DNA of 64,000 nucleotides. Origin: Lachnospiraceae bacterium A4 (GTDB lineage: Bacteria; Bacillota; Clostridia; Lachnospirales; Lachnospiraceae). The position numbers and the translations under genes are program-made. The notes under the pieces are model-generated. The model was given only the letters and a program-made list of their open reading frames with translations, was not told the DNA's origin and did not search any database. Below are positions 3,341-29,015 of the stretch, in pieces; the stretch's first letter is position 1; each line of letters starts with the position of its first letter. The DNA lies in contig KE159538.1 of NCBI GenBank assembly GCA_000403215.2, forward strand, positions 230,527 through 294,526. Reading direction: 5' to 3'.

Positions 3341-3372
3341 CACCAGCATTAATTAGAATATTGAGGTTAATT

Positions 3373-4344
3373 ATGATAGATCCAGTAAAATCCAATTTGT
3401 TTAAATTATCTTCAAAGAAATATTTAATGACACTATTAAATGTACCAACAAAAGAATATTTAAATCAAAACTTTACCGCAAAACAGATTAAGCCATATAT
3501 ACAAGCAAATCCAAAACCTCGCTTAATTGAAGTCCCTTCGGATTCTCTTAAAAAAATTCAGAAAAACATAAAATGTGAATTAAATAAAATAGAAGTTCCT
3601 TCCAATGTATTCTCTGGTATAAAAGGAAAATCTTATGTTGATAATGCTGTTATACACCAAAACTGTAATTTTCTTTTCAAAATAGACTTAACAGCATTTT
3701 TTCCATGCATAACTCGTGAAACAGTGTATAAATTTTTTAAAGTTGATTTAAAAACATCTTCTGATATAGCCAATATTCTCACTAATTTTGTTACTATCGA
3801 CTTAACTTTATGTGATATTCAGGAACCAGAACCTATTGAACAATTCCTTTTATCCAAGGGAATAAAAACTACAAATCATTTAATTTCTGGTTCTCCTGCA
3901 AGTCAAATCCTATCTTATTTAGCGAATCATAATATGTTTGATGAACTACAAAATTTTTGTGATAAAAATGATATAATTATGTCTATATATGTAGATGATA
4001 TTACTTTTTCTTCACAGCACGAAATTTCACATAAGCACAAAGAAATAATTTATAATATTATTTTCAAATATTTATATAGACTTTCAAGATCAAAAGTAAA
4101 ATACTACACAAGTATTTATCCAAAATCTGTTACTGGAGCTATCATTTCTCCTAATGGGAACCTCAGTATCCCTAACTCATTAAGCTATAAAGTAATAAAT
4201 GAATTGCGTAATTATAAGAATAATCCAAATGACGAACACTCTCAAAAGAGACTTCAGGGTTTAATAGTTGTTGCACAACAAACTGAACCAACAAAATTCA
4301 GTAATATTTATAATCATGTTCGCAATGCCACTATTAAAGCATAA
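3373..4344 (+). CDS. Retron-type reverse transcriptase
   Basis: A 323-residue RT. Retron hallmarks are visible in order: NAVIH (residues 91-95, the NAxxH motif), the first catalytic aspartate in FKIDLTAFFP (about 105), SGSPAS (172-177), YVDD (206-209) and VTG (253-255) in the C-terminal domain that recognises the msr RNA. Length is normal for stand-alone retron RTs. Start ATG at 3373 follows TTGAGGTTAATT. Retron RTs copy their own RNA into msDNA and guard a toxic partner as an anti-phage system; here the RNA candidate and a membrane protein lie upstream on the same strand. The 3' end overlaps the convergent gene at 4334 by 11 bases. Confidence 0.9.
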   Translation: MIDPVKSNLFKLSSKKYLMTLLNVPTKEYLNQNFTAKQIKPYIQANPKPRLIEVPSDSLKKIQKNIKCELNKIEVPSNVFSGIKGKSYVDNAVIHQNCNFLFKIDLTAFFPCITRETVYKFFKVDLKTSSDIANILTNFVTIDLTLCDIQEPEPIEQFLLSKGIKTTNHLISGSPASQILSYLANHNMFDELQNFCDKNDIIMSIYVDDITFSSQHEISHKHKEIIYNIIFKYLYRLSRSKVKYYTSIYPKSVTGAIISPNGNLSIPNSLSYKVINELRNYKNNPNDEHSQKRLQGLIVVAQQTEPTKFSNIYNHVRNATIKA

Positions 4345-13835: not shown

Positions 13836-14765
13836 TCATTCTATATAACTAAAAATATGTGCAATTACATCAACACACCACCCATTACCAATTGCTTCAA
13901 ATCTTCTTGTTTTAGGAACACAATCCGTATAATTATCTGGCAACGTCTGGAGTCTTTCTATTTCTACAGGACATGTCTTTTTATATGTATTATTACCAAG
14001 CCATAGATTAAACTTTGTTTCTGTTCTACATCTTGGGACTGTTGGTGCTTTAGAATCTGGAAAATATGCTCTATCCTGCTGAGAGTAATACCCATGTCCT
14101 CCCAAATCATATTTCACATAATTTTTTGATATTATCATTGTTTTTCCAATTCTTTCATCAACTTTTATGAGCGAAGGATCATTGACAATAATATCTTTAA
14201 ACAACAACCCTTTATCTCTAGGCTGTTCTATATTTGGTATGTTTGTCCAGTAATTGCGTTTCCTTCTCTGTGCAGATACTAATGCAGCATCTATCATTAT
14301 AGGTTTAACACCTAATTGATTTGATATTTCTAATAAAATATTATCTGGTATTCCTTCATTATTTTCATACAAAAAATATTTAGGTTTAACAGTTTTGATG
14401 CACTCAACATACTTCATAAAAAGTTTCCAACCCGTACCATTGGTATCTAATTCTTTTTTAGATTTTGCTGTTTTATTACATTTAGCTTTTGACCAAAAAG
14501 TACAAGGTGAACCGCCAATTACTATATCTATATTTTTATCAATGAATTCTGTGAAACTGGAGTCAAAAACATCACCGCATTGCACAGTATTTGGATAATT
14601 TTTCATTGTAATCTTTATAGCATTTGTCTCAATTTCAAAAGCATAATATTTTTTCACCTTTATTCCAACTCTCTCAAATGCAACTTGCCCACAGCTTATG
14701 CCATCAAACAAACTTAATACTGTTAATCCTTCCTCTTTTAAACTAAATCTTTCAATGGGAGTCAT
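13836..14765 (-). CDS. C5 cytosine-specific DNA methyltransferase
   Basis: 309 residues with the Dcm family order: SLFDGISCGQVAF (motif I, 18-30), GGSPC (84-88, catalytic cysteine), YENNEG (133-138, the ENV-type motif IV), SAQRRKRNYW (164-173, motif VIII) and IGNGWCVDVI near the end (motif X). It transfers a methyl group from SAM to cytosine C5. The target-recognition region is short. There is no restriction endonuclease next to it, so it may be a solitary protective methylase. Start ATG at 14765; a second ATG-free upstream leaves no better choice. Confidence 0.92.
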   Translation of the reverse strand: MTPIERFSLKEEGLTVLSLFDGISCGQVAFERVGIKVKKYYAFEIETNAIKITMKNYPNTVQCGDVFDSSFTEFIDKNIDIVIGGSPCTFWSKAKCNKTAKSKKELDTNGTGWKLFMKYVECIKTVKPKYFLYENNEGIPDNILLEISNQLGVKPIMIDAALVSAQRRKRNYWTNIPNIEQPRDKGLLFKDIIVNDPSLIKVDERIGKTMIISKNYVKYDLGGHGYYSQQDRAYFPDSKAPTVPRCRTETKFNLWLGNNTYKKTCPVEIERLQTLPDNYTDCVPKTRRFEAIGNGWCVDVIAHIFSYIE

Positions 14766-17052: not shown

Positions 17053-17316
17053 TCATCGTTTTGCGAAACTACTTTTTATGCTCTCCATTCCACAATTATG
17101 TTTACAATTGCCACACATTGTTGTGTGTCTCCAATCGCAAATTTCTTTTGCGCTGCATTGGCAACCCAAACTTGAATTGTATATGTTATATCCATCTTTA
17201 TTTTTATTACTTTCCATAATATTCAAGCAGACAAATATAAACAATAAGACAGGAACTAATATCAATCCAACTAATAATACTACTAATAATATTTGACCCA
17301 TTGTCACATTCTCCAT
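17053..17316 (-). CDS. Single-pass membrane protein with Cys-rich tail
   Basis: 87 residues. One strongly hydrophobic helix (about residues 8-32, ILLVVLLVGLILVPVLLFIF) is followed by a cytosolic or external tail with six cysteines (CQCSAKEIC, CGNCKHNC), which suggests metal binding or disulfides. It lies 12 bases downstream of the DGR reverse transcriptase on the same strand, so it may be part of the DGR operon. No family recognised. Confidence 0.65.
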   Translation of the reverse strand: MENVTMGQILLVVLLVGLILVPVLLFIFVCLNIMESNKNKDGYNIYNSSLGCQCSAKEICDWRHTTMCGNCKHNCGMESIKSSFAKR

Positions 17317-17328
17317 ACTTTATAAAAA

Positions 17329-18366
17329 TCAATTACTAAATAATTCTTCTACATATTTATCCATATCATATCCCAATTTCACACAATTCCCATGGGATAT
17401 ATGATTTTTCCAAGCATTATAACTTTCATAGAACTTTTCTTCACTTATCTTTCCATTCCTTACCAACCTGACCATTTTCTTAAATTTCTTTTTAGCTGCA
17501 CGCTTGTTTTCGTTCTTCAGCTTACGGATCACCTTGCCATCAGAAGTCACATATGTGTGAAATCCACAAAATTTAATTCCATTTTTAAATGGAATAATCT
17601 GTGTCTTACCATTCAATTCGAGTCCTAATGTATACACAAATTTATAAATAGCACTTAAACACCACTTAGCATATTCCTTTCCCTGAACTATCAAATAGAA
17701 ATCATCCATATACCTGCCATAATATTTAACTCCGAGTTCCCCAGTGATGAAGTTATCTAAACCTGATAAATATGTAAGCGCATATACCTGGCTGACTTGA
17801 TTACCAAGCGGAAGTCCTAATCCATCTGTGCTATCAATAAACTTTTCACATAGCCAATACACATCTTTATCTTCCACAAAATAACTTACAATATCTTTTA
17901 AAACATCATGATCTATATTGTAAAAAAATTTACTGATATCTGCTTTTATAATCCAACAGTTATATCCATATTTACAATATGCCAGATACATATGCGCCTT
18001 TAAACAATCCAAACCATATAATGTACCTTTTCCTATTTGTCCTGCATAATTTGTCTGTATGAATTCTTTTTTCAGTATTGGAATTAAAACATTATCACAT
18101 AAAGAATGCTGTACTATTTTATCTACAAATGAACACGATTTAATAATTCTCTCTTTAGGTTCATATATTGTAAATTCATTATATTTTGATACATTATATG
18201 TCTTTGTCTCTAATCTTCTTTTTATTTGATGAATTCCATCCAAAGCCATCACTTGAAATTTTTGACTACTTTTAGAAAATCCTTTACCTGATTTGGACTT
18301 TAAATATGCTTGATACAAATTACCGAAATCTACTACTTTTTCAAAATCTGTTTTATCTTCTATCAT
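17329..18366 (-). CDS. Diversity-generating retroelement reverse transcriptase
   Basis: 345-residue RT. Catalytic motifs: ADISKFFYNID (first Asp at 143), GLPLGNQVSQ (184-193, the DGR/group II-like motif), YMDD (219-222), then a thumb with PFKNGIKFCGF. It sits downstream of the variable gene, Avd and the template repeat, the classic DGR order. DGR RTs make error-prone cDNA from the template RNA, misreading adenines, and the cDNA replaces the variable repeat. The template/variable comparison in this window (11 changes, all at template A) directly supports activity in the recent past. Confidence 0.95.
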   Translation of the reverse strand: MIEDKTDFEKVVDFGNLYQAYLKSKSGKGFSKSSQKFQVMALDGIHQIKRRLETKTYNVSKYNEFTIYEPKERIIKSCSFVDKIVQHSLCDNVLIPILKKEFIQTNYAGQIGKGTLYGLDCLKAHMYLAYCKYGYNCWIIKADISKFFYNIDHDVLKDIVSYFVEDKDVYWLCEKFIDSTDGLGLPLGNQVSQVYALTYLSGLDNFITGELGVKYYGRYMDDFYLIVQGKEYAKWCLSAIYKFVYTLGLELNGKTQIIPFKNGIKFCGFHTYVTSDGKVIRKLKNENKRAAKKKFKKMVRLVRNGKISEEKFYESYNAWKNHISHGNCVKLGYDMDKYVEELFSN

Positions 18367-18486
18367 AATATTTTGTTCCTTTATATTTATCCTGACTTTT
18401 TTCTAATCAGGAAAGGTTGCCTATTCTTTTGATATCGGGACTCTAATTTCAGTGTTTCTCTTACTTTCTCTCGTCTTCCGATCCAG

Positions 18487-18566
18487 AACGGACGCACACC
18501 TTTGTCATAATCACACCTGTTGTAGTTCACATTACCATCAGAGTAGACGTACTGAACATAGTGGGT
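18487..18566 (-). repeat. DGR template repeat (TR)
   Basis: 80 bases match 19080-19159 except at 11 positions. Every one of those is an A in the TR (coding orientation): nine changed to G, two to T; 10 of the 21 template adenines are unchanged. TR lies between Avd and RT, as in phage BPP-1. Outside 18487-18566 the similarity stops abruptly. The repeat is also open to translation on the minus strand (…YVQYVYSDGNVNYNRCDYD…), which simply mirrors the target gene and is not evidence of a protein. Confidence 0.95.
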
Positions 18567-18587
18567 CATACAATAGGCAACCTAAAA

Positions 18588-18956
18588 TTATCTTTCTTTA
18601 TCTTTTGAACGCCAAGCAATACTCATATATTTCACATCATTTATTTGTTTCTGCCAATATCCTACTGTATCACTTCCTATTAAATTCAATTTCATAGAAA
18701 GTTCTACATAACAAGATAACTTATCACAACATGAAATCGCTTTTGTTTGCAGTTCTTGACGTTCTGATTTTGAAGTATCCAATTTCAGTCTATTTGCATC
18801 AAGCAAATATTCATATATATCCATACAGCGATTTTGGATGCGTTTCACCAATGTTAAATGCTTAACTGGATACCTCTTTCGGTTTGATGTAATTGTCATA
18901 GTATATTCCATAAGATTTATTGCTTTTACAATAACATCCAGTTTCGCTTCGCTCAC
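18588..18956 (-). CDS. avd: DGR accessory protein Avd
   Basis: 122 residues, basic, predicted four-helix bundle, with the C-terminal IAWRSKDKER typical of Avd/bAvd proteins. Avd forms a pentamer that binds the RT and template RNA and is needed for mutagenic cDNA synthesis. It lies between target gene and template repeat. The ATG at 18956 is close to the end of the target gene (65-base gap holding the recognition hairpin). Confidence 0.88.
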   Translation of the reverse strand: MSEAKLDVIVKAINLMEYTMTITSNRKRYPVKHLTLVKRIQNRCMDIYEYLLDANRLKLDTSKSERQELQTKAISCCDKLSCYVELSMKLNLIGSDTVGYWQKQINDVKYMSIAWRSKDKER

Positions 18957-18996
18957 TGGCTACTCCGCTCCTTTCAGTCGCTCATAGGCTGTTGAC

Positions 18997-19018
18997 GGCA
19001 AGGGCTTACGCCCTCGCC
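18997..19018 (-). promoter_or_regulatory. DGR target-recognition hairpin
   Basis: GC-rich inverted repeat GGCAAGGGC-TTAC-GCCCTCGCC: eight pairs, one mismatch, four-base loop, just after the target gene stop. Short GC hairpins/cruciforms with a four-base loop downstream of the variable repeat are required for efficient retrohoming in BPP-1 and related DGRs. Here it is about 62 bases after the end of VR. Confidence 0.7.
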
Positions 19019-19021
19019 TAG

Positions 19022-19828
19022 TTACTGGCTATCCGTTACATTGTCGCAAGATCCAAAGATATCAGATTGGAGGATGAAAAACGGACGCACACCCCTGCCA
19101 TAAACACACCTGCCGTAGCTCACATCACCATCAGAGCAGACGTACTGAACATAGCGGGAATCTCCTCTCTTTGGTGTTTGATTAGGATTTGCAAGCCAAT
19201 ACAAGTCTTCAATCAATGGAATATTCTCCCCAAACTTCATAAGTAACTGAATATTTGGAATCGCTAAAATATCTCCTTCAACTGTGCCATAGTCCTTAAA
19301 ACCATCCATAGATGTTAGATCCAGAGAAATGGGAACCAATTTATCTCCAAATTCTTTCTTTAACTCTGCAGCTAACTCACTATTGACAAGATAATTGCGC
19401 ACATAGGAATCTGCATAATTATTTGTCTTACCAAACTCTGATTTTTTAAGAATTCCATTCAGAAAATAATATGTAAGGTTCCCATCAGTAACACTTGTCC
19501 AATAATGTCCACAAATGAATTTGAAGTTCTTCTTCCAATCTTCCATATATTTTTCAACGGCATTTCTAAATTCCTGCACGTATCTCTCTGGATCTTTTTC
19601 ATACCAGTCTGGTACAATATCTTGATCAACCTTATATCTCCAGTCTTTTACATCACTCATTCTATCATTATTTTTCGGAATCAACTCAGCTCTCACAAAT
19701 GTCTTTGTTGCATTCATATGAGTATCTGCAATTCCAAGGCTTTCTAACAAATCTGAATGACTTTCGTTACCTTTTGGTGTTAATACAACCTTGTTTTTTA
19801 AAATAATTCCACTCTTAAACTGACACAT
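19022..19828 (-). CDS. DGR variable target protein (C-type-lectin-like fold)
   Basis: 268 residues. The N-terminal MCQFKSGIILKNKVVL… region resembles a domain often seen in clostridial phage/plasmid proteins. The middle (YGTVEGDILAIPNIQLL, DLYWLANP) and end (GVRPFFIL) resemble the DUF6273/CLec-type domain used by many DGR targets. The variable repeat encodes about residues 224-250, near the C-terminus, so the diversified residues would lie on one exposed face. Differences from the TR-encoded version: H to R, Y to C, N to D/S/G, D to V/G, K to R. Start ATG follows AAAAGGAGAGATAA. No signal peptide or membrane segment, so the ligand is unknown. Confidence 0.85.
   Translation of the reverse strand: MCQFKSGIILKNKVVLTPKGNESHSDLLESLGIADTHMNATKTFVRAELIPKNNDRMSDVKDWRYKVDQDIVPDWYEKDPERYVQEFRNAVEKYMEDWKKNFKFICGHYWTSVTDGNLTYYFLNGILKKSEFGKTNNYADSYVRNYLVNSELAAELKKEFGDKLVPISLDLTSMDGFKDYGTVEGDILAIPNIQLLMKFGENIPLIEDLYWLANPNQTPKRGDSRYVQYVCSDGDVSYGRCVYGRGVRPFFILQSDIFGSCDNVTDSQ
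19080..19159 (-). repeat. DGR variable repeat (VR)
   Basis: 80-base copy of the TR inside the target gene. The invariant downstream end (coding orientation GTGCGTCCGTT) is where cDNA priming would occur. Eleven substitutions, all at template adenines. Confidence 0.95.
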
Positions 19829-21660: not shown

Positions 21661-22515
21661 TTACACCTCTCCCACATTCACAAACCGTTCAATATATTCT
21701 CGACCATCGCCTTTGAAAATCGGGATATCCTTGTCGATAATCCAATTATTCTCACCTTGTTTCTGATCTCGCAACATACATTTTTCTGTAACTTCATCGC
21801 ATTCAAGAACAACTTTATTTCTTACCACACAGCTCCCACGTTTCTGATATGTGGGCAAGTCGTTCCAATTAATACCCTTCTGAGTCATAAGCATATCCTG
21901 AATATCATTACAGGACTTATGTTGTAATTCTTTATGACTGAAATTTGCTTGTCCTACCATCTGAATACTGTTTCTGGAAGCATCAAGTTGCCGCCAGTAA
22001 AAATTGTTTGTAACTTCTTCTTTTGGAAGATTAAATACACGAGAATCAAATACTAATCCCATCTTTATTGCTTTTTTGAGAACTTTAACATATTTTTCTT
22101 CTACATCGGAATGATTCCATGCTTCATAAAAATCATCTATATACATCTCAGCATTACTTGTAAAATATTTATTAAAAGCAAGCGTAGCCATAGCAGCCGA
22201 AATAGAAATTATTTTATCAATTCTATAATCAAACCACGACTCAGTATTTAGTTTCTCATAATCTACAAGTAATAAAGTTATCTCGTCACTTTGTATGTAA
22301 GCACATTGACATCCTTGTATATTCTCACACAAATACTTTGCTGTTTCTTGCATACTTTTCATGAAGATTTCATCAAATGGTCTTTTAAAACCTTTTGTAA
22401 ATGTGTGTCCAGCCCTTGAATCTAACCTAATGATTACTGGCAATCTTTTCTGTAAATAATATCTATTGCGTTTTTCATAATCTTTCATTCTATTTGCCAA
22501 ATCACTTGTATCCAC
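21661..22515 (-). CDS. Thg1-like protein (3'-5' nucleotidyltransferase)
   Basis: 284 residues. IIRLDSRAGHTFTKGFKRPFD (28-48) and YIQSDEITLLL (73-83) are the two metal-binding Thg1 motifs (Asp32, Asp/Glu in SDE 76-78), followed by QLDASRNSIQMVGQANFSHKE, a conserved family segment. Thg1-like proteins add nucleotides in the 3' to 5' direction; bacterial and phage members repair 5'-truncated tRNAs. Start is GTG at 22515, with AGGGAGGAATAAAA before it. An IS110-type element lies directly upstream and separates it from the HD gene at 24463, whose operon it probably shared. Confidence 0.88.
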   Translation of the reverse strand: MDTSDLANRMKDYEKRNRYYLQKRLPVIIRLDSRAGHTFTKGFKRPFDEIFMKSMQETAKYLCENIQGCQCAYIQSDEITLLLVDYEKLNTESWFDYRIDKIISISAAMATLAFNKYFTSNAEMYIDDFYEAWNHSDVEEKYVKVLKKAIKMGLVFDSRVFNLPKEEVTNNFYWRQLDASRNSIQMVGQANFSHKELQHKSCNDIQDMLMTQKGINWNDLPTYQKRGSCVVRNKVVLECDEVTEKCMLRDQKQGENNWIIDKDIPIFKGDGREYIERFVNVGEV

Positions 22516-23043: not shown

Positions 23044-24330
23044 TTATGCTGCCTGTACCTGTGGCCTCTTGATGTCTCCCAGCAGCTTCTTTGGGTCATA
23101 CTCTACACCTTTTGTGAGGATTGCATAAAATATCCTTAGTATCTTGCAGGCTACCGCCACTACCGACTGCATCTTTTTCAGCGGGTTCTCCTTCCTCGTC
23201 CGGTAGTATTCATGTATCTCCCGGAACTCTGCATTCTTCCCCACCAGCGATATTGCTGCCTCATACAGTACATATCTCAGGCGTTTCCGCCCACGGTAGC
23301 TGATCCGGCTTTCCCCATTATGTTTTCCGGAATCATTCGCCACGATGGCATATCCTGCCAGCTTCTGCAGCTGTTTGGGATTGTCAAACCGTCCTATGTC
23401 CCCAACTTCCGCTATAAAGCCGCTGACCGTCACCATTCCGATCCCCTTGATAGCCAGCAGGTTGTCTATATATGGGATCTCTTTCAGTTTTTCTTCTATA
23501 TTTCGGAGCAGTCCCTCCTGCCTTGCTGTATATACATCCATGTCATCCAGCAGGTTCTTCAGTTCCATCCTTGCGGCTTCCGGTGCTTCCTTGCTTCCAA
23601 CGCTATGCTCCGCGGCCGTTACAAGGGTCTTTGCCCTCTTCATTCCAGCACCTCTCAGCTTTGCGTCCCTCCATATCCGGTTCACACCTTCCACTCCCAG
23701 TTTTCTGATGTCCTCCGGCAGCGGTGCCTCCTTCAGCACCATCCTCCCGCTCACCGCCTTCAAATCCCCGTAAACGTCTTTATATTCAGGAAAGTAGATG
23801 GCGAACCATCTGGCCAGGCGGTTCTTGATCCTCGTGAGCTCCTCCTGCGTCTGGAAGCGCAGGTTCGATAAGCTCCTGATCTCTGCATAGATGCCGACTG
23901 GCATGTAAGGGTATGAGAATCTTCCCTCGTTGACAAGCGCAGCGATCGTCTTGGGATCCTTTCGGTCATTCTTGTTGGGGTTGTTGTCATCCAGTTCTTT
24001 CGATTTCTTCACATGGTGGGGATTTACATGTACCGGCTTCATTCCGTTATCCTGCAGGAATTTCCCCAGGGCGAACCAATAGTGGCCTGTCGGCTCCATG
24101 CCGGGGATTACAGCAGTTTTGCCATGTTTCTCCGCCATGTCCTCCATCCATGCTTTGAATGTCTGGAATCCGGCCTCTGTGTTGCTGAACTCCAGCGGTT
24201 TCTTTGTGTACTCGTAGTTGCGCCAGTCAAATGCTCGGGCATAATGAGTTTCACTTCCCACATCAATACCAACGATCAAAGTTTTTTCAGTTATGGATGC
24301 AATTTTTGCGTTCTGTGTGTTATAATTCAT
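23044..24330 (-). CDS. IS110-family transposase (DEDD recombinase)
   Basis: 428 residues from the ATG at 24330 (GAGAGGTATCCAAG before it; the frame extends upstream to 24420). N-terminal RuvC-like DEDD domain starts VGIDVGSETHYARAF and includes PGMEPTGHYW and NDRKDPKTIAAL. The C-terminal Transposase_20 domain has IKGIGMVTVSGFIAEVG and the serine-containing SGKHNGESRISYRGRKRLR. These enzymes move the element through a guide RNA. Codon usage is much more GC-rich than the neighbours, a recent arrival. Confidence 0.93.
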   Translation of the reverse strand: MNYNTQNAKIASITEKTLIVGIDVGSETHYARAFDWRNYEYTKKPLEFSNTEAGFQTFKAWMEDMAEKHGKTAVIPGMEPTGHYWFALGKFLQDNGMKPVHVNPHHVKKSKELDDNNPNKNDRKDPKTIAALVNEGRFSYPYMPVGIYAEIRSLSNLRFQTQEELTRIKNRLARWFAIYFPEYKDVYGDLKAVSGRMVLKEAPLPEDIRKLGVEGVNRIWRDAKLRGAGMKRAKTLVTAAEHSVGSKEAPEAARMELKNLLDDMDVYTARQEGLLRNIEEKLKEIPYIDNLLAIKGIGMVTVSGFIAEVGDIGRFDNPKQLQKLAGYAIVANDSGKHNGESRISYRGRKRLRYVLYEAAISLVGKNAEFREIHEYYRTRKENPLKKMQSVVAVACKILRIFYAILTKGVEYDPKKLLGDIKRPQVQAA

Positions 24331-24462
24331 CTTGGATACCTCTCTGTTAAATAAGATTTTTACTAACCATCCAAAAGTCAGTAATCTTATTTTACTCTGA
24401 GGTATCTTTTTATCAACCACCCTTCTTGGAATTCCCTATATTTGAATTATACAGGAAGCTCC

Positions 24463-25795: not shown

Positions 25796-27247
25796 CTATA
25801 CATTTATCTTTGCTTTTGCTTCTATGTAATTATTTAGTTCTTTCTTCATATGTAAAAAATTTTTTCGCTGATCCGGGAAATACATATTATTTTTTGCAGC
25901 ATACTGTTCTAACCACTCGTCCAAATCCACATCTCGCTCATATGAATACGCCACCAAAGCTAATAATGATTTTCTATTCTCGATATTAAGAAGTTTTGAA
26001 CCATCTCTAATTGTTTTGTCAGTCAAACTATAAAGTGTTTCATTATATACTTCCATTTCTTCAATAACTTTTTCCAGATCCATGTTGAGCACATCAGCAA
26101 TGAAAGACTCATTTTCTGTGTCACAAATGCCATTATCGGTTTCATTTTTTGCGTCTATATGTAAAAATTCGTTCATTAGATTTATGATATAATCAATCTT
26201 TCTGTTTATTAAACTTTTATCTTTTGTATTGCGGTCGGAATCAATCTTTCCCCAATCTTCACCATCTATTTCTTTGAATTTCAGACTATTAACAAATGCC
26301 TTTAAAAATTCGCCAAATCTATCATCTGAAATATGCAAGTTTGTAAATCTGTTGAATACCATCATCCAGATAAACAAATTTTTCGATGTAAAAAGAGCGG
26401 CAACCTCACTTTCATCAATTTTGTCACAATATGGAATTAATCTCTTAAAATATACTTCTATATTCTTATATTCCTGTTCTGATGAATTTTCATTAAGGTA
26501 ATCACACATATCCTTCGGTGTCCTTTTCCAGTTCTCATAATGATAAATACCCATCACACACTCAGAAATAACCCTTTCCCATATGCCCTTTTCTTTTTCA
26601 TTTTCCGATAACATAGTACAATCCATTAAAAATCTGTTCGTATCTTTAATTCTCTTTATTTCATCCGCATATTTACCTATATAAGTAAATGCTTTTTGAG
26701 CAGCGTTCATGGCAACATGATTATTATAAAGAAGTACTAATTCTGATGTTTCTTCAGTTGCACAGTCCTGATATATTACTGTAGTCAATGGACATCCATT
26801 AAATTTATTTTTTAACTCCTGTGGCAAATCTTCGTATGTTTTTCCTCTGATATCAAATTCTTCTACTTCACATTGGATATTTCCATACTCATCTCTTAAA
26901 TATTCTCCATTTTCATCAGTTTTTTTCTTTGTGTAGGGAACAATATAACTTCTTAATTTATTTGTAATTTTATACCCGTTATACTTAAACTGATATAAGG
27001 TCTCTGTTCTTTGCCCGCCATCAACAACATAAGTCTGTTTAGTTCCGTCTTTTTTCTTTTCTTCTGCAAGTATTAAGTTGGGAATATATATTTTTCGTGA
27101 TAATGCACTATATATAAGAGCATTCATCATCTCTTTGCCCCAGCAAAAACTTCTTTGTACAGCCTGATCAATCTTTATGTCTTCACTTTCTACACCATCT
27201 AAATACTGCCCTACACTTAACGGCTCAATCCTATATTCATCTAACAT
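25796..27247 (-). CDS. DUF262 (GmrSD N-domain-like) protein
   Basis: 483 residues from ATG 27247, after AGGAGATAAAA. The N-terminal ParB-like DUF262 domain has DQAVQRSFCWGKEMMNALI and YVVDGGQRTETL, matching the VDGQQR motif of GmrSD/DUF262 proteins, which are linked to nucleotide-dependent DNA cleavage and anti-phage defence. The rest is helical and lacks the DUF1524 HNH domain of GmrSD, so nuclease activity is doubtful. Confidence 0.75.
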   Translation of the reverse strand: MLDEYRIEPLSVGQYLDGVESEDIKIDQAVQRSFCWGKEMMNALIYSALSRKIYIPNLILAEEKKKDGTKQTYVVDGGQRTETLYQFKYNGYKITNKLRSYIVPYTKKKTDENGEYLRDEYGNIQCEVEEFDIRGKTYEDLPQELKNKFNGCPLTTVIYQDCATEETSELVLLYNNHVAMNAAQKAFTYIGKYADEIKRIKDTNRFLMDCTMLSENEKEKGIWERVISECVMGIYHYENWKRTPKDMCDYLNENSSEQEYKNIEVYFKRLIPYCDKIDESEVAALFTSKNLFIWMMVFNRFTNLHISDDRFGEFLKAFVNSLKFKEIDGEDWGKIDSDRNTKDKSLINRKIDYIINLMNEFLHIDAKNETDNGICDTENESFIADVLNMDLEKVIEEMEVYNETLYSLTDKTIRDGSKLLNIENRKSLLALVAYSYERDVDLDEWLEQYAAKNNMYFPDQRKNFLHMKKELNNYIEAKAKINV

Positions 27248-27249
27248 TT

Positions 27250-27909
27250 TTATCTCCTCCTGACTAATCCAGATATACATCTTACATTTTTATACGATCT
27301 TATTGCCGCTATACAATCTAAGTATAACTTTGTATCTATATGTAATATGCTTTTAATCTCTTCAGATGAATAGCCATCTGCCATAAGCTCTAAAACTCTA
27401 ATCTGAATTTTTGATAATCTCCCCAAGTACCTTTTCATTTCTGGAGAAAACTCTTCTTTAGATCCAATTATTTCTGATAAAACACTTTCTATGGTAAAAT
27501 CAGACTGTAGCGTATCCCCAATCGTCATATTCTCATATTCATTTAAAGGCGTATCAATAGAAACATCTGTTAAAGGAATTTTCACTTTATTGCCTTTCTC
27601 GTCAATAGATTCAATTTTAAATACACGTTTATCACGATATCGCTTTTTATATTCATCTTTAATAGCAAATAATATGGATCTGTATATATATCCGTCAAAA
27701 TCTCCTTTAGACGGATCATATCTTTTATTCCAGAGAATATCCATTACCACATCACTTCCTATTCCATAAAACTCTTCCATGTCTTTTCCCGTAATTCCAC
27801 CATAGTGTGTAATAAAAATCTGATTTATAACAGTATGAAGTTTTTTTGCGTTATCAGCATAATATGCATTTATTATCTGCTCCAAATAGACATCTGACAC
27901 CTGTTTCAT
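27250..27909 (-). CDS. Sigma-70-like factor
   Basis: 219 residues from ATG 27909 (AGGAAGGTGTATCAAA before it). A region-2-like part (GDFDGYIYRSILFAIKDEYKKRYRDKR) and a region-4 helix-turn-helix (SKIQIRVLELMADGYSSEEIKSILHI) match phage/plasmid-type sigma-like proteins. It could direct polymerase to element-specific promoters. It ends two bases before the DUF262 start. Confidence 0.75.
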   Translation of the reverse strand: MKQVSDVYLEQIINAYYADNAKKLHTVINQIFITHYGGITGKDMEEFYGIGSDVVMDILWNKRYDPSKGDFDGYIYRSILFAIKDEYKKRYRDKRVFKIESIDEKGNKVKIPLTDVSIDTPLNEYENMTIGDTLQSDFTIESVLSEIIGSKEEFSPEMKRYLGRLSKIQIRVLELMADGYSSEEIKSILHIDTKLYLDCIAAIRSYKNVRCISGLVRRR

Positions 27910-28811: not shown

Positions 28812-28874
28812 TTTTTCTTCTCCTTCCTTAAAAATGGGTATAAAAAATACAGTGTACTTGAAACACTGATTTAA

Positions 28875-28949
28875 TGGATTTATTGGGAATCGAACCCAAG
28901 ACATACTGACTTTAAAATCAACTGCTACTACCAACTGAGCTATAAATCC
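28875..28949 (-). tRNA. Unusual tRNA, anticodon ambiguous (UUA or UAA)
   Basis: Cloverleaf on the minus strand: acceptor GGATTTA/TAAATCC (7 of 7), D-arm GCTC/TAGC with one mismatch and a 9-base loop, T-arm TTGGG/CCCAA with TTCGATT loop, 5-base variable region, discriminator A, no encoded CCA. The anticodon stem GTTGA/TCAGT (two wobble pairs) closes an 8-base loop, TTTTAAAG, instead of 7. Reading from T33 gives anticodon TTA (would decode UAA) or, shifted by one, TAA (Leu), although a short variable arm is not Leu-like. It may be degenerate. Confidence 0.8.
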
Positions 28950-29015
28950 ACATTTTTATTTTCTTTGAAATTTGAGTATTTTGCAGAACCGCTTGATAAA
29001 ACTTTTAAAATTCAC

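Follow-up and report, generated by a model that had tools for sequence, protein, structure and literature searches.

The 64,000-nt stretch of the Lachnospiraceae bacterium A4 genome analyzed here (the window; positions 230,527–294,526 of host contig C12) carries a further diversity-generating retroelement (DGR), of a kind already known, within a large prophage. The cassette lies on the minus strand and comprises a target gene, its variable repeat (VR), a hairpin, the accessory gene avd, a template repeat (TR) and a reverse transcriptase (RT) gene. A first-pass annotation of the same DNA had recognized a complete DGR in this canonical order, and the intact open reading frames (ORFs), family matches, TR/VR pair and hairpin bear that out. 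The features are listed below in window coordinates, except for the last line.

17329–19828, minus strand: complete canonical DGR in the order target-VR-hairpin-Avd-TR-RT
19022–19828, minus strand: DGR target gene, 268 aa; intact ORF with the VR near its 3′ end
19080–19158, minus strand: VR core, 79 nt; 10 differences from the TR, all at template A
18997–19018, minus strand: hairpin/cruciform element past the target stop codon; 9-bp stem, GTAA loop, 61 nt downstream of the VR core
18588–18956, minus strand: Avd accessory protein, 122 aa, GTG start; intact ORF with a phrog_3206 match
18572–18583, minus strand: 5′ arm of the TR-closing helix, directly past the avd stop codon and 6 nt ahead of the TR core
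18487–18565, minus strand: TR core, 79 nt with 20 adenines, from the alignment with the VR
18451–18461, minus strand: spacer stem-loop beside a conserved GAAA, covarying in the family; 2 of 3 pairs in this copy
18414–18425, minus strand: 3′ arm of the TR-closing helix; 12 of 12 pairs with 18572–18583
18390–18412, minus strand: hairpin between the 3′ arm and a conserved ATAAA plus the RT start; single-sequence fold
17329–18366, minus strand: DGR reverse transcriptase, 345 aa; intact ORF with YMDD in the translation
C12 ~189,133–367,447: prophage of ~178 kb containing the whole window (1–64000)

The cassette has a DGR-group RT, near-identical TR and VR that differ at template adenines, an Avd, and a 3′ end resembling the initiation of mutagenic homing (IMH) element together with a post-VR hairpin. 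The RT matches PHROG phrog_1423 (E = 8e-107) and Pfam RVT_1 (E = 3.6e-13). Among solved structures its closest sequence relative is 8ub7, "Reverse transcriptase" (E = 4.6e-32), which we take to be the enzyme of Bordetella phage BPP-1. Avd matches phrog_3206, "Avd protein of DGR" (E = 7.6e-18), and reaches 30.1 bits (E = 4.6e-7) against NCBIfam DivGenRetAVD, under the curated cut-off of 80. Among the relatives L004–L009, Avd is 97.5–99.2% identical to that of the window and the RT only 88–90%, an unexpected pairing within one cassette. Hairpins resembling 18390–18412 are visible by eye in family alignments.

TR and VR share the invariant GGTGTGCGTCCGTT end (IMH-like) and are the sole two matches to the TR in the host genome at E ≤ 0.001, a threshold at which no remote second VR was found; the target protein matches only its own gene and the TR there. 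A stem-loop begins 58–64 nt after the VR in 14 of 16 distinct downstream stretches from the window and its close relatives, with stem sequences that vary and loops of 3, 4 or 8 nt; the exceptions are L089, at 87 nt, and L008, which has none by the rule used (one mismatch). The window hairpin departs in both loop (GTAA) and distance (61 nt) from the phage DGR consensus given in passages of PMC3240598, a GRNA loop within 4–34 bp of the VR. The BPP-1 DGR (mtd-VR-avd-TR-brt) has the same gene order, Avd, adenine-specific rewriting and post-VR hairpin, whereas its annotated TR spans 134 nt against the 79-nt core in the window. A Cys-rich 87-aa protein at 17053–17316, earlier proposed as a Cys-tailed membrane protein of the operon, was rejected as a cassette member: tblastn returned no match in 148 related loci, whose flanks extend at most 4–6 kb and are in several cases shorter. 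These loci comprise 80 kept of 155 from IMG/VR and 68 from one genome scan.

Adenine-Specific Rewriting of the Variable Repeat

The TR and VR cores align without gaps and differ at 10 sites, every one of which is among the 20 template adenines (nine A>G and one A>T). Were 10 differences scattered at random over the 79 sites, all would land on the 20 adenines with a probability of 1.3e-7, a somewhat favorable figure because the core ends were set by a score that penalizes non-A differences; with alternative core ends (18485–18563), 10 of 11 differences are at A. The count of 11 of 11 in the first-pass annotation thus holds for the 10 core differences, and its eleventh (A>T at TR 18566/VR 19159) sits at the 5′ edge of homology, outside the core, and is counted or not according to the ends chosen. 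On the 3′ side of the core, the nearest differences are not at A (TR 18486 C>T, 18484 G>T and 18483 G>C), and differences beyond the core ends are read here as the probable end of homology. The same script places 17 of 17 differences between the BPP-1 TR and VR at A. The number of protein variants reachable from the TR codons of the window was computed as ~2e11.

The pattern extends to the relatives. Among the 80 viral loci, an A-tolerant search gave a repeat pair in 68 and none in 12, and in 66 the pair has at least 5 differences with at least 85% of them at A. A closer set was defined as 18 distinct TR/VR pairs from 23 loci with RT identity of at least 72%, window included, delimited by the same score with trimming of non-A differences at the ends. 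In these pairs 238 adenine sites are changed (184 to G, 40 to T and 14 to C) and 172 are unchanged, and only 6 of 1072 non-adenine sites have changed. The two observations that had been named as telling against an active DGR, changes at non-A template positions and a VR identical across relatives, thus came out in its favor, with so few non-adenine changes and with VRs that are not identical.

The strong preference for A>G had been singled out as notable, and it is indeed strong: 184 of 238 changes (77%) in the close relatives and 385 of 714 (54%) in a filtered set of 59 pairs taken from more remote relatives. From these counts it is a family trait, but not a strange one, because A>G is also the main outcome of the BPP-1 DGR in E. 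coli, where misincorporation of C accounts for 59.3% in the cDNA according to passages of PMC12875486, against the 77% of the natural VRs here. Selection on the protein may shape this share, since the pairs compared are natural VRs. In the close relatives A>C occurs at 0 of 145 adenines with C as the next base, unlike BPP-1 in E. coli, for which the same passages report much G misincorporation at adenines preceding C (PMC12875486); enzymes or selection therefore appear to differ.

Pairs of very similar loci date the rewriting. L011 and L013 have identical TRs, 0 of 662 differences in the target upstream of the VR and 0 of 1031 in the RT, and between their VRs 12 of 20 template adenine sites are changed, with 0 of 64 changed elsewhere. 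The VRs of L054 and L055 differ at 14 of 23 template adenines and 1 of 59 other sites, with 1 of 664 in the target. By this comparison the VR has been rewritten since the copies in each pair split. The recent activity claimed earlier is thereby supported among close relatives, and for the window copy itself we infer it from them. An old DGR with a VR fixed long ago would likewise present a single VR in this strain. All ORFs, the hairpin, the TR and the IMH-like end are intact, however, core differences are confined to A, and close relatives with identical TRs, some of them with identical or near-identical RTs, differ at many A sites and at 0–1 other VR sites, so that an inactive relic seems very improbable. 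The DGR is real, complete and active in its family.

A Helix That Closes the Template Repeat

The TR is bracketed by a perfect 12-bp inverted repeat (18414–18425 and 18572–18583) with arms 146 nt apart. Conservation of the corresponding helix was assessed in 85 loci with RT identity of at least 54%, window included, which reduce to 66 distinct regions that were not selected by stem; three further loci above that identity (L104, L061 and L132) lay outside the test, their RT start not having been located. The helix is kept at 11 or more of 12 pairs in 61 of 62 regions, the remaining four regions being without the stretch at contig ends, and in a separate alignment L104 has 12 of 12 pairs. In alignment A1, whose 39 sequences were selected for stems of at least 11 and whose paired percentage is accordingly biased in a way that the 62-region test is not, a two-helix structure has 97.6% of cells paired, against 35–44% when slid and 79.5% when shuffled. 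Its covariation score is 0.637, against 0.259 for shuffled (reached by 0 of 500 shuffles) and at most 0.163 for slid alignments, and both sides change in 10 of the 12 helix pairs. Run against 52 sources, a covariance model of the TR RNA (R1) detected it in 39 at E ≤ 1e-4, and 27 of 34 aligned RNAs found in this way, being fitted to the model, keep at least 11 pairs. Rfam gave no match to the TR RNA at gathering score; only a tRNA was found in the window.

Three results count against the helix in the family. With G-U allowed, a stem of at least 12 bp arises somewhere in 33 of 300 shuffles of the region, so that the window stem is not extreme alone; a simple stem search is positive in 23 of 23 loci at RT identities of at least 72%, falling to 41 of 56 at 54–72% and 23 of 57 below 54%; and L059, in whose flank no TR is recognizable, keeps 7 of 12 pairs. 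Across the alignments as a whole, the covarying TR-closing helix is nonetheless firm in this family.

The inverted repeat could instead work as a DNA cruciform or as a transcription attenuator. A DNA hairpin/cruciform does function beside the VR in DGRs (passages of PMC3240598), and arms 146 nt apart could pair in DNA too. However, 21 of 468 helix-1 cells in A1 are G-U or U-G on the TR-sense strand, and selection seems to act on the TR-sense RNA because these cells are C·A mismatches on the opposite strand. The arms also hold their position relative to the TR although TR length varies, and no long T-run follows the 3′ arm. A role in DNA or in attenuation is on this evidence improbable, and pairing within the template RNA is the preferred account.

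Outside the family, signs of such a helix were sought in 13 DGRs, carried by phages and by one archaeal virus. When perfect stems were looked for in the expected positions, five DGRs stood out from shuffles (nd12, Brigit, Lelie, Shimadzu and ANMV-1), and R1 matches four (nd12, Lelie, Brigit and Shimadzu). The Faecalibacterium phages Brigit and Lelie and the Roseburia phage Shimadzu have RTs 30–38% identical to that of the window, TR RNAs that match R1 with E-values of 1.8e-8 to 2.6e-14 and closing helices of 12–14 bp. In a mismatch-tolerant duplex test of 14 DGRs, window included, the downstream flank belonging to a given upstream flank is its best partner in 11 cases and its second best in 3, with a mean of −26.5 kcal/mol for own flanks against −17.0 for 178 swaps. 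Against mononucleotide shuffles, 11 of these DGRs have at most 10 of 300 shuffles as good. The geometry taken as general is ~12 bp, with the 5′ arm 0–15 nt before the TR and the 3′ arm ~45–60 nt after it.

Other outcomes argue against extending the helix beyond the family. Perfect stems do not stand out from shuffles in 8 of the 13: of 200 shuffles, 181 are as good for BPP-1, 185 for YPCBV-1, 182 for phiARM81mr, 143 for phiWae15, 55 for ACA1, 49 for VP58.5, 28 for Bise and 23 for BalMu-1. For BPP-1 a bulged pairing between the TR flanks can be drawn, without that test singling the phage out. The duplex test was devised after the perfect-stem result, its swaps are partly confounded by base composition, and it is no better than shuffles for YPCBV-1 (58 of 300) and weak for nd12 (23 of 300) and VP58.5 (16 of 300). 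R1 has no match to the BPP-1 spacer RNA or to eight others of the 13, and the TR itself adds to the R1 score. As a general DGR feature the helix is thus suggestive. A TR-closing helix is not described in passages of PMC12875486, PMC3521204, PMC8144416, PMC3240598, PMC11792537, PMC8867640 and PMC10907252, a set that did not cover the BPP-1 structure literature; the helix as a general feature, together with the early-type target considered below, may be new.

The Target Protein and Its Carrier Prophage

The target consists of an N-terminal domain (residues ~1–104) and a C-type-lectin-like (CLec), DUF6273-like domain (~130–255) that carries the VR. A C-type-lectin-like fold, which had been proposed for checking by structure prediction, is probable: the AlphaFold2 model is confident, with a pLDDT of 90.9 (alignment of 32 sequences, the window and 31 relatives), and the eight codons changed in this copy (225, 231, 235, 237, 239, 242, 244 and 245) map to its C-terminal strands and loops. 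Foldseek against viral models returned DUF6273 proteins, to E = 1e-6, and Pfam DUF6273 scores 18.1 bits on the target sequence, under its cut-off of 23.5. The target alignment, used as a profile against solved structures, gave 13 matches (E = 0.01–0.76), which were taken as chance. No signal peptide is recognizable by eye, in agreement with the first-pass annotation. According to passages of PMC11792537, Lelie also has DUF6273-type targets. In L104 the RT is similar but the target N-terminus differs, and the target ORF as delimited ends before the VR; among more distant relatives one or two short CLec targets are present, two in many of them.

The N-terminal domain offers a lead on where the protein acts. 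It is 51.6% identical to Dulem virus 35 XCD05138.1 (residues 1–91) and 51.0% identical to a protein of MT835516 (residues 1–104), and both proteins continue after this domain with repeats (NSQVGEM/MW-type) in place of CLec. In Dulem virus 35, for which no DGR is annotated in the 6.3-kb stretch, the gene lies ~0.5 kb from an annotated repressor gene; in MT835516, a record without annotation, the gene runs off the contig and lies ~0.5 kb from an HTH-like ORF read as a repressor. A search for TerL in 17 records gave 7 with a match (3 strong and 4 weak) and 10 without, and in 7 of 7 records with a match the DGR is on the opposite strand, ~46–70 kb from TerL, distances being derived from coordinates. 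In the window prophage the DGR is 65 kb from the terminase, in the arm opposite the structural genes. Because kin of the N-terminal domain are encoded near repressors and the DGR lies far from and opposite to TerL, the target appears to be early and intracellular; it is probably not a tail or virion protein, unlike the BPP-1 target, and its partner would most likely be a variable protein of the host or of a rival phage, met within the host cell.

Several observations weigh against this account of the target. Foldseek matches in the PDB are mostly C-type lectins and weak (E = 0.03–0.7), with only 9qa6 below 0.001 (E = 2e-5), and the viral fold matches include a few proteins named receptor-binding or tail. 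The target might then be an ordinary receptor-binding or decoration protein like BPP-1 Mtd, serving host-range change from a gene that merely stands apart from the structural genes. CLec/DUF6273-type domains are the usual DGR scaffolds and are present in phage virion-type proteins (passages of PMC11792537), and target residues 210–262 weakly match a Hoc-like head decoration PHROG (E = 0.001). In Brigit and Shimadzu the RT adjoins annotated tail or decoration genes, the neighbors in Lelie being unnamed; these three differ from the window prophage in being phage genomes of 45–62 kb. A virion role fits poorly, however, with the distance and strand relative to TerL, even with four of the seven matches weak, with the repressor-type neighbors of the N-terminal domain in two other phages, and with the target having no tail or fiber family match in Pfam or PHROG outside the CLec part. 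We regard it as unlikely, though it keeps a real share of the weight, and favor an early, intracellular target.

The carrier had been described as plasmid-like, a description that the surrounding contig contradicts. GC content of the 792-kb host contig falls from ~0.46 to ~0.32 between ~190 and ~370 kb. At the left end a Phage_integrase-family gene (E = 8.1e-21) comes after a tRNA-Gly gene (CCC), and a 38-bp att repeat equal to the tRNA-Gly 3′ end lies at 189,176–189,213 and 367,410–367,447. A family scan of 20 proteins of the region identified a terminase (phrog_2, E = 8.6e-23), a tape measure protein (phrog_4211, E = 1.3e-47) and further tape-measure proteins, a phage lysozyme, DNA polymerase III alpha, an anaerobic ribonucleotide reductase (NRDD) and a PF05183 RdRP-like protein. 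The PF05183 match (RdRP, E = 6e-9) is a 916-aa protein encoded at L168:16775–19525, ~2 kb right of the window. The RdRP-like protein, DNA polymerase III alpha and ribonucleotide reductase offer a tentative lead to an SPbeta-like group. By gene content and boundaries the carrier is a large tailed-phage prophage in integrated form. The integrase, the att repeat, the phage genes and the change in GC within the contig led to rejection of a plasmid-like carrier, replication and relaxase families not having been searched for; RT matches in the plasmid collection are all below 60% identity.

Within the genus (38 genomes including its own, 15 with some match) the RT occurs at high identity in its own genome only, the next match being 35% identical (E = 1.2e-26). 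The closest named relatives sit in Lachnospiraceae-type genomes, and relatives occur on viral contigs of up to ~166 kb. The closest loci (L004–L011, L013–L015, L017, L054, L055, L071 and L084–L090), with RTs 73–90% identical, share the cassette order, two-domain target, RNA helix and, L089 and L008 excepted, the post-VR hairpin. They differ in phage backbone: TerL identity ranges from 81% down to partial matches of 25–30% in the six records with a match. With the RT conserved and the terminases divergent, the DGR cassette therefore seems to move between phage backbones.

Elsewhere in the window, a second RT, of retron type, is encoded on the plus strand at 3361–4344 (PADLOC RT_VI, E = 3e-67; NCBIfam retron St85-like below cut-off), and one prophage therefore carries a retron-like RT and a DGR. 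The other genes noted are on the minus strand. Homologues of the 21661–22515 product, which we take to resemble tRNA-His guanylyltransferase (Thg1), lie close to the DGR at eight further loci, some being copies of one another; a C5 cytosine methyltransferase (13836–14765) has no match near the DGR in related loci. An IS110-family transposase gene (23044–24420) lies within the prophage, and a GmrSD_N-type protein is encoded at 25796–27280 (Pfam E = 4.6e-10; PADLOC NsnA, E = 1.5e-17). A tRNA at 28874–28950 (ARAGORN four-base anticodon ttaa; Rfam tRNA, 53 bits) is possibly a frameshift-type or odd phage tRNA.

A Helix-Clamped Template in the Proposed Mechanism

The account that we consider likely is a prophage DGR with a helix-clamped template and adenine-specific rewriting of an early-type, lectin-like target. 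The avd-TR-RT transcript would fold so that the 12-bp helix (18572–18583 with 18414–18425) closes a loop around the whole TR, with spacer stem-loops alongside, and the RT-Avd complex would bind this folded RNA. The TR would be copied with errors at adenines, mostly C placed opposite A and hence A>G, and cDNA synthesis would stop at the closing helix. The IMH-like GGTGTGCGTCCGTT end common to both repeats and the hairpin 61 nt past the VR would then direct the cDNA to the 3′ end of the target gene, where it would replace the VR. The resulting protein would join an early-looking, non-virion phage N-terminal domain to a surface of C-type-lectin type in which, in this copy, eight residues are changed. 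That the helix clamps the template and its ribonucleoprotein (RNP) and stops cDNA synthesis is something that we infer. According to passages of PMC12875486, reverse transcription in BPP-1 is halted by a motif in the avd 3′ end, and the spacer folds and recruits RT-Avd; since the 5′ arm of the helix lies at the avd end, the helix would fit both.

A broader version is tentative, and we would give it somewhat less than even weight: a general DGR-RNA helix, shared by gut phages, BPP-1-like phages and an archaeal virus, would set the cDNA stop and let the TR be replaced without changing the RNP, and this clade would diversify an early, intracellular, non-virion protein.

The TR-closing helix supplies an easily tested rule for locating the start and end of a DGR template, and it offers a structural reason for the RT stop in the avd 3′ end reported in passages of PMC12875486. 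The covariance model finds the TR RNAs of this family without needing a VR. A hypervariable lectin-like domain here takes the place of the repeats in related phage proteins, which makes the question of what a phage diversifies besides its tail directly testable.

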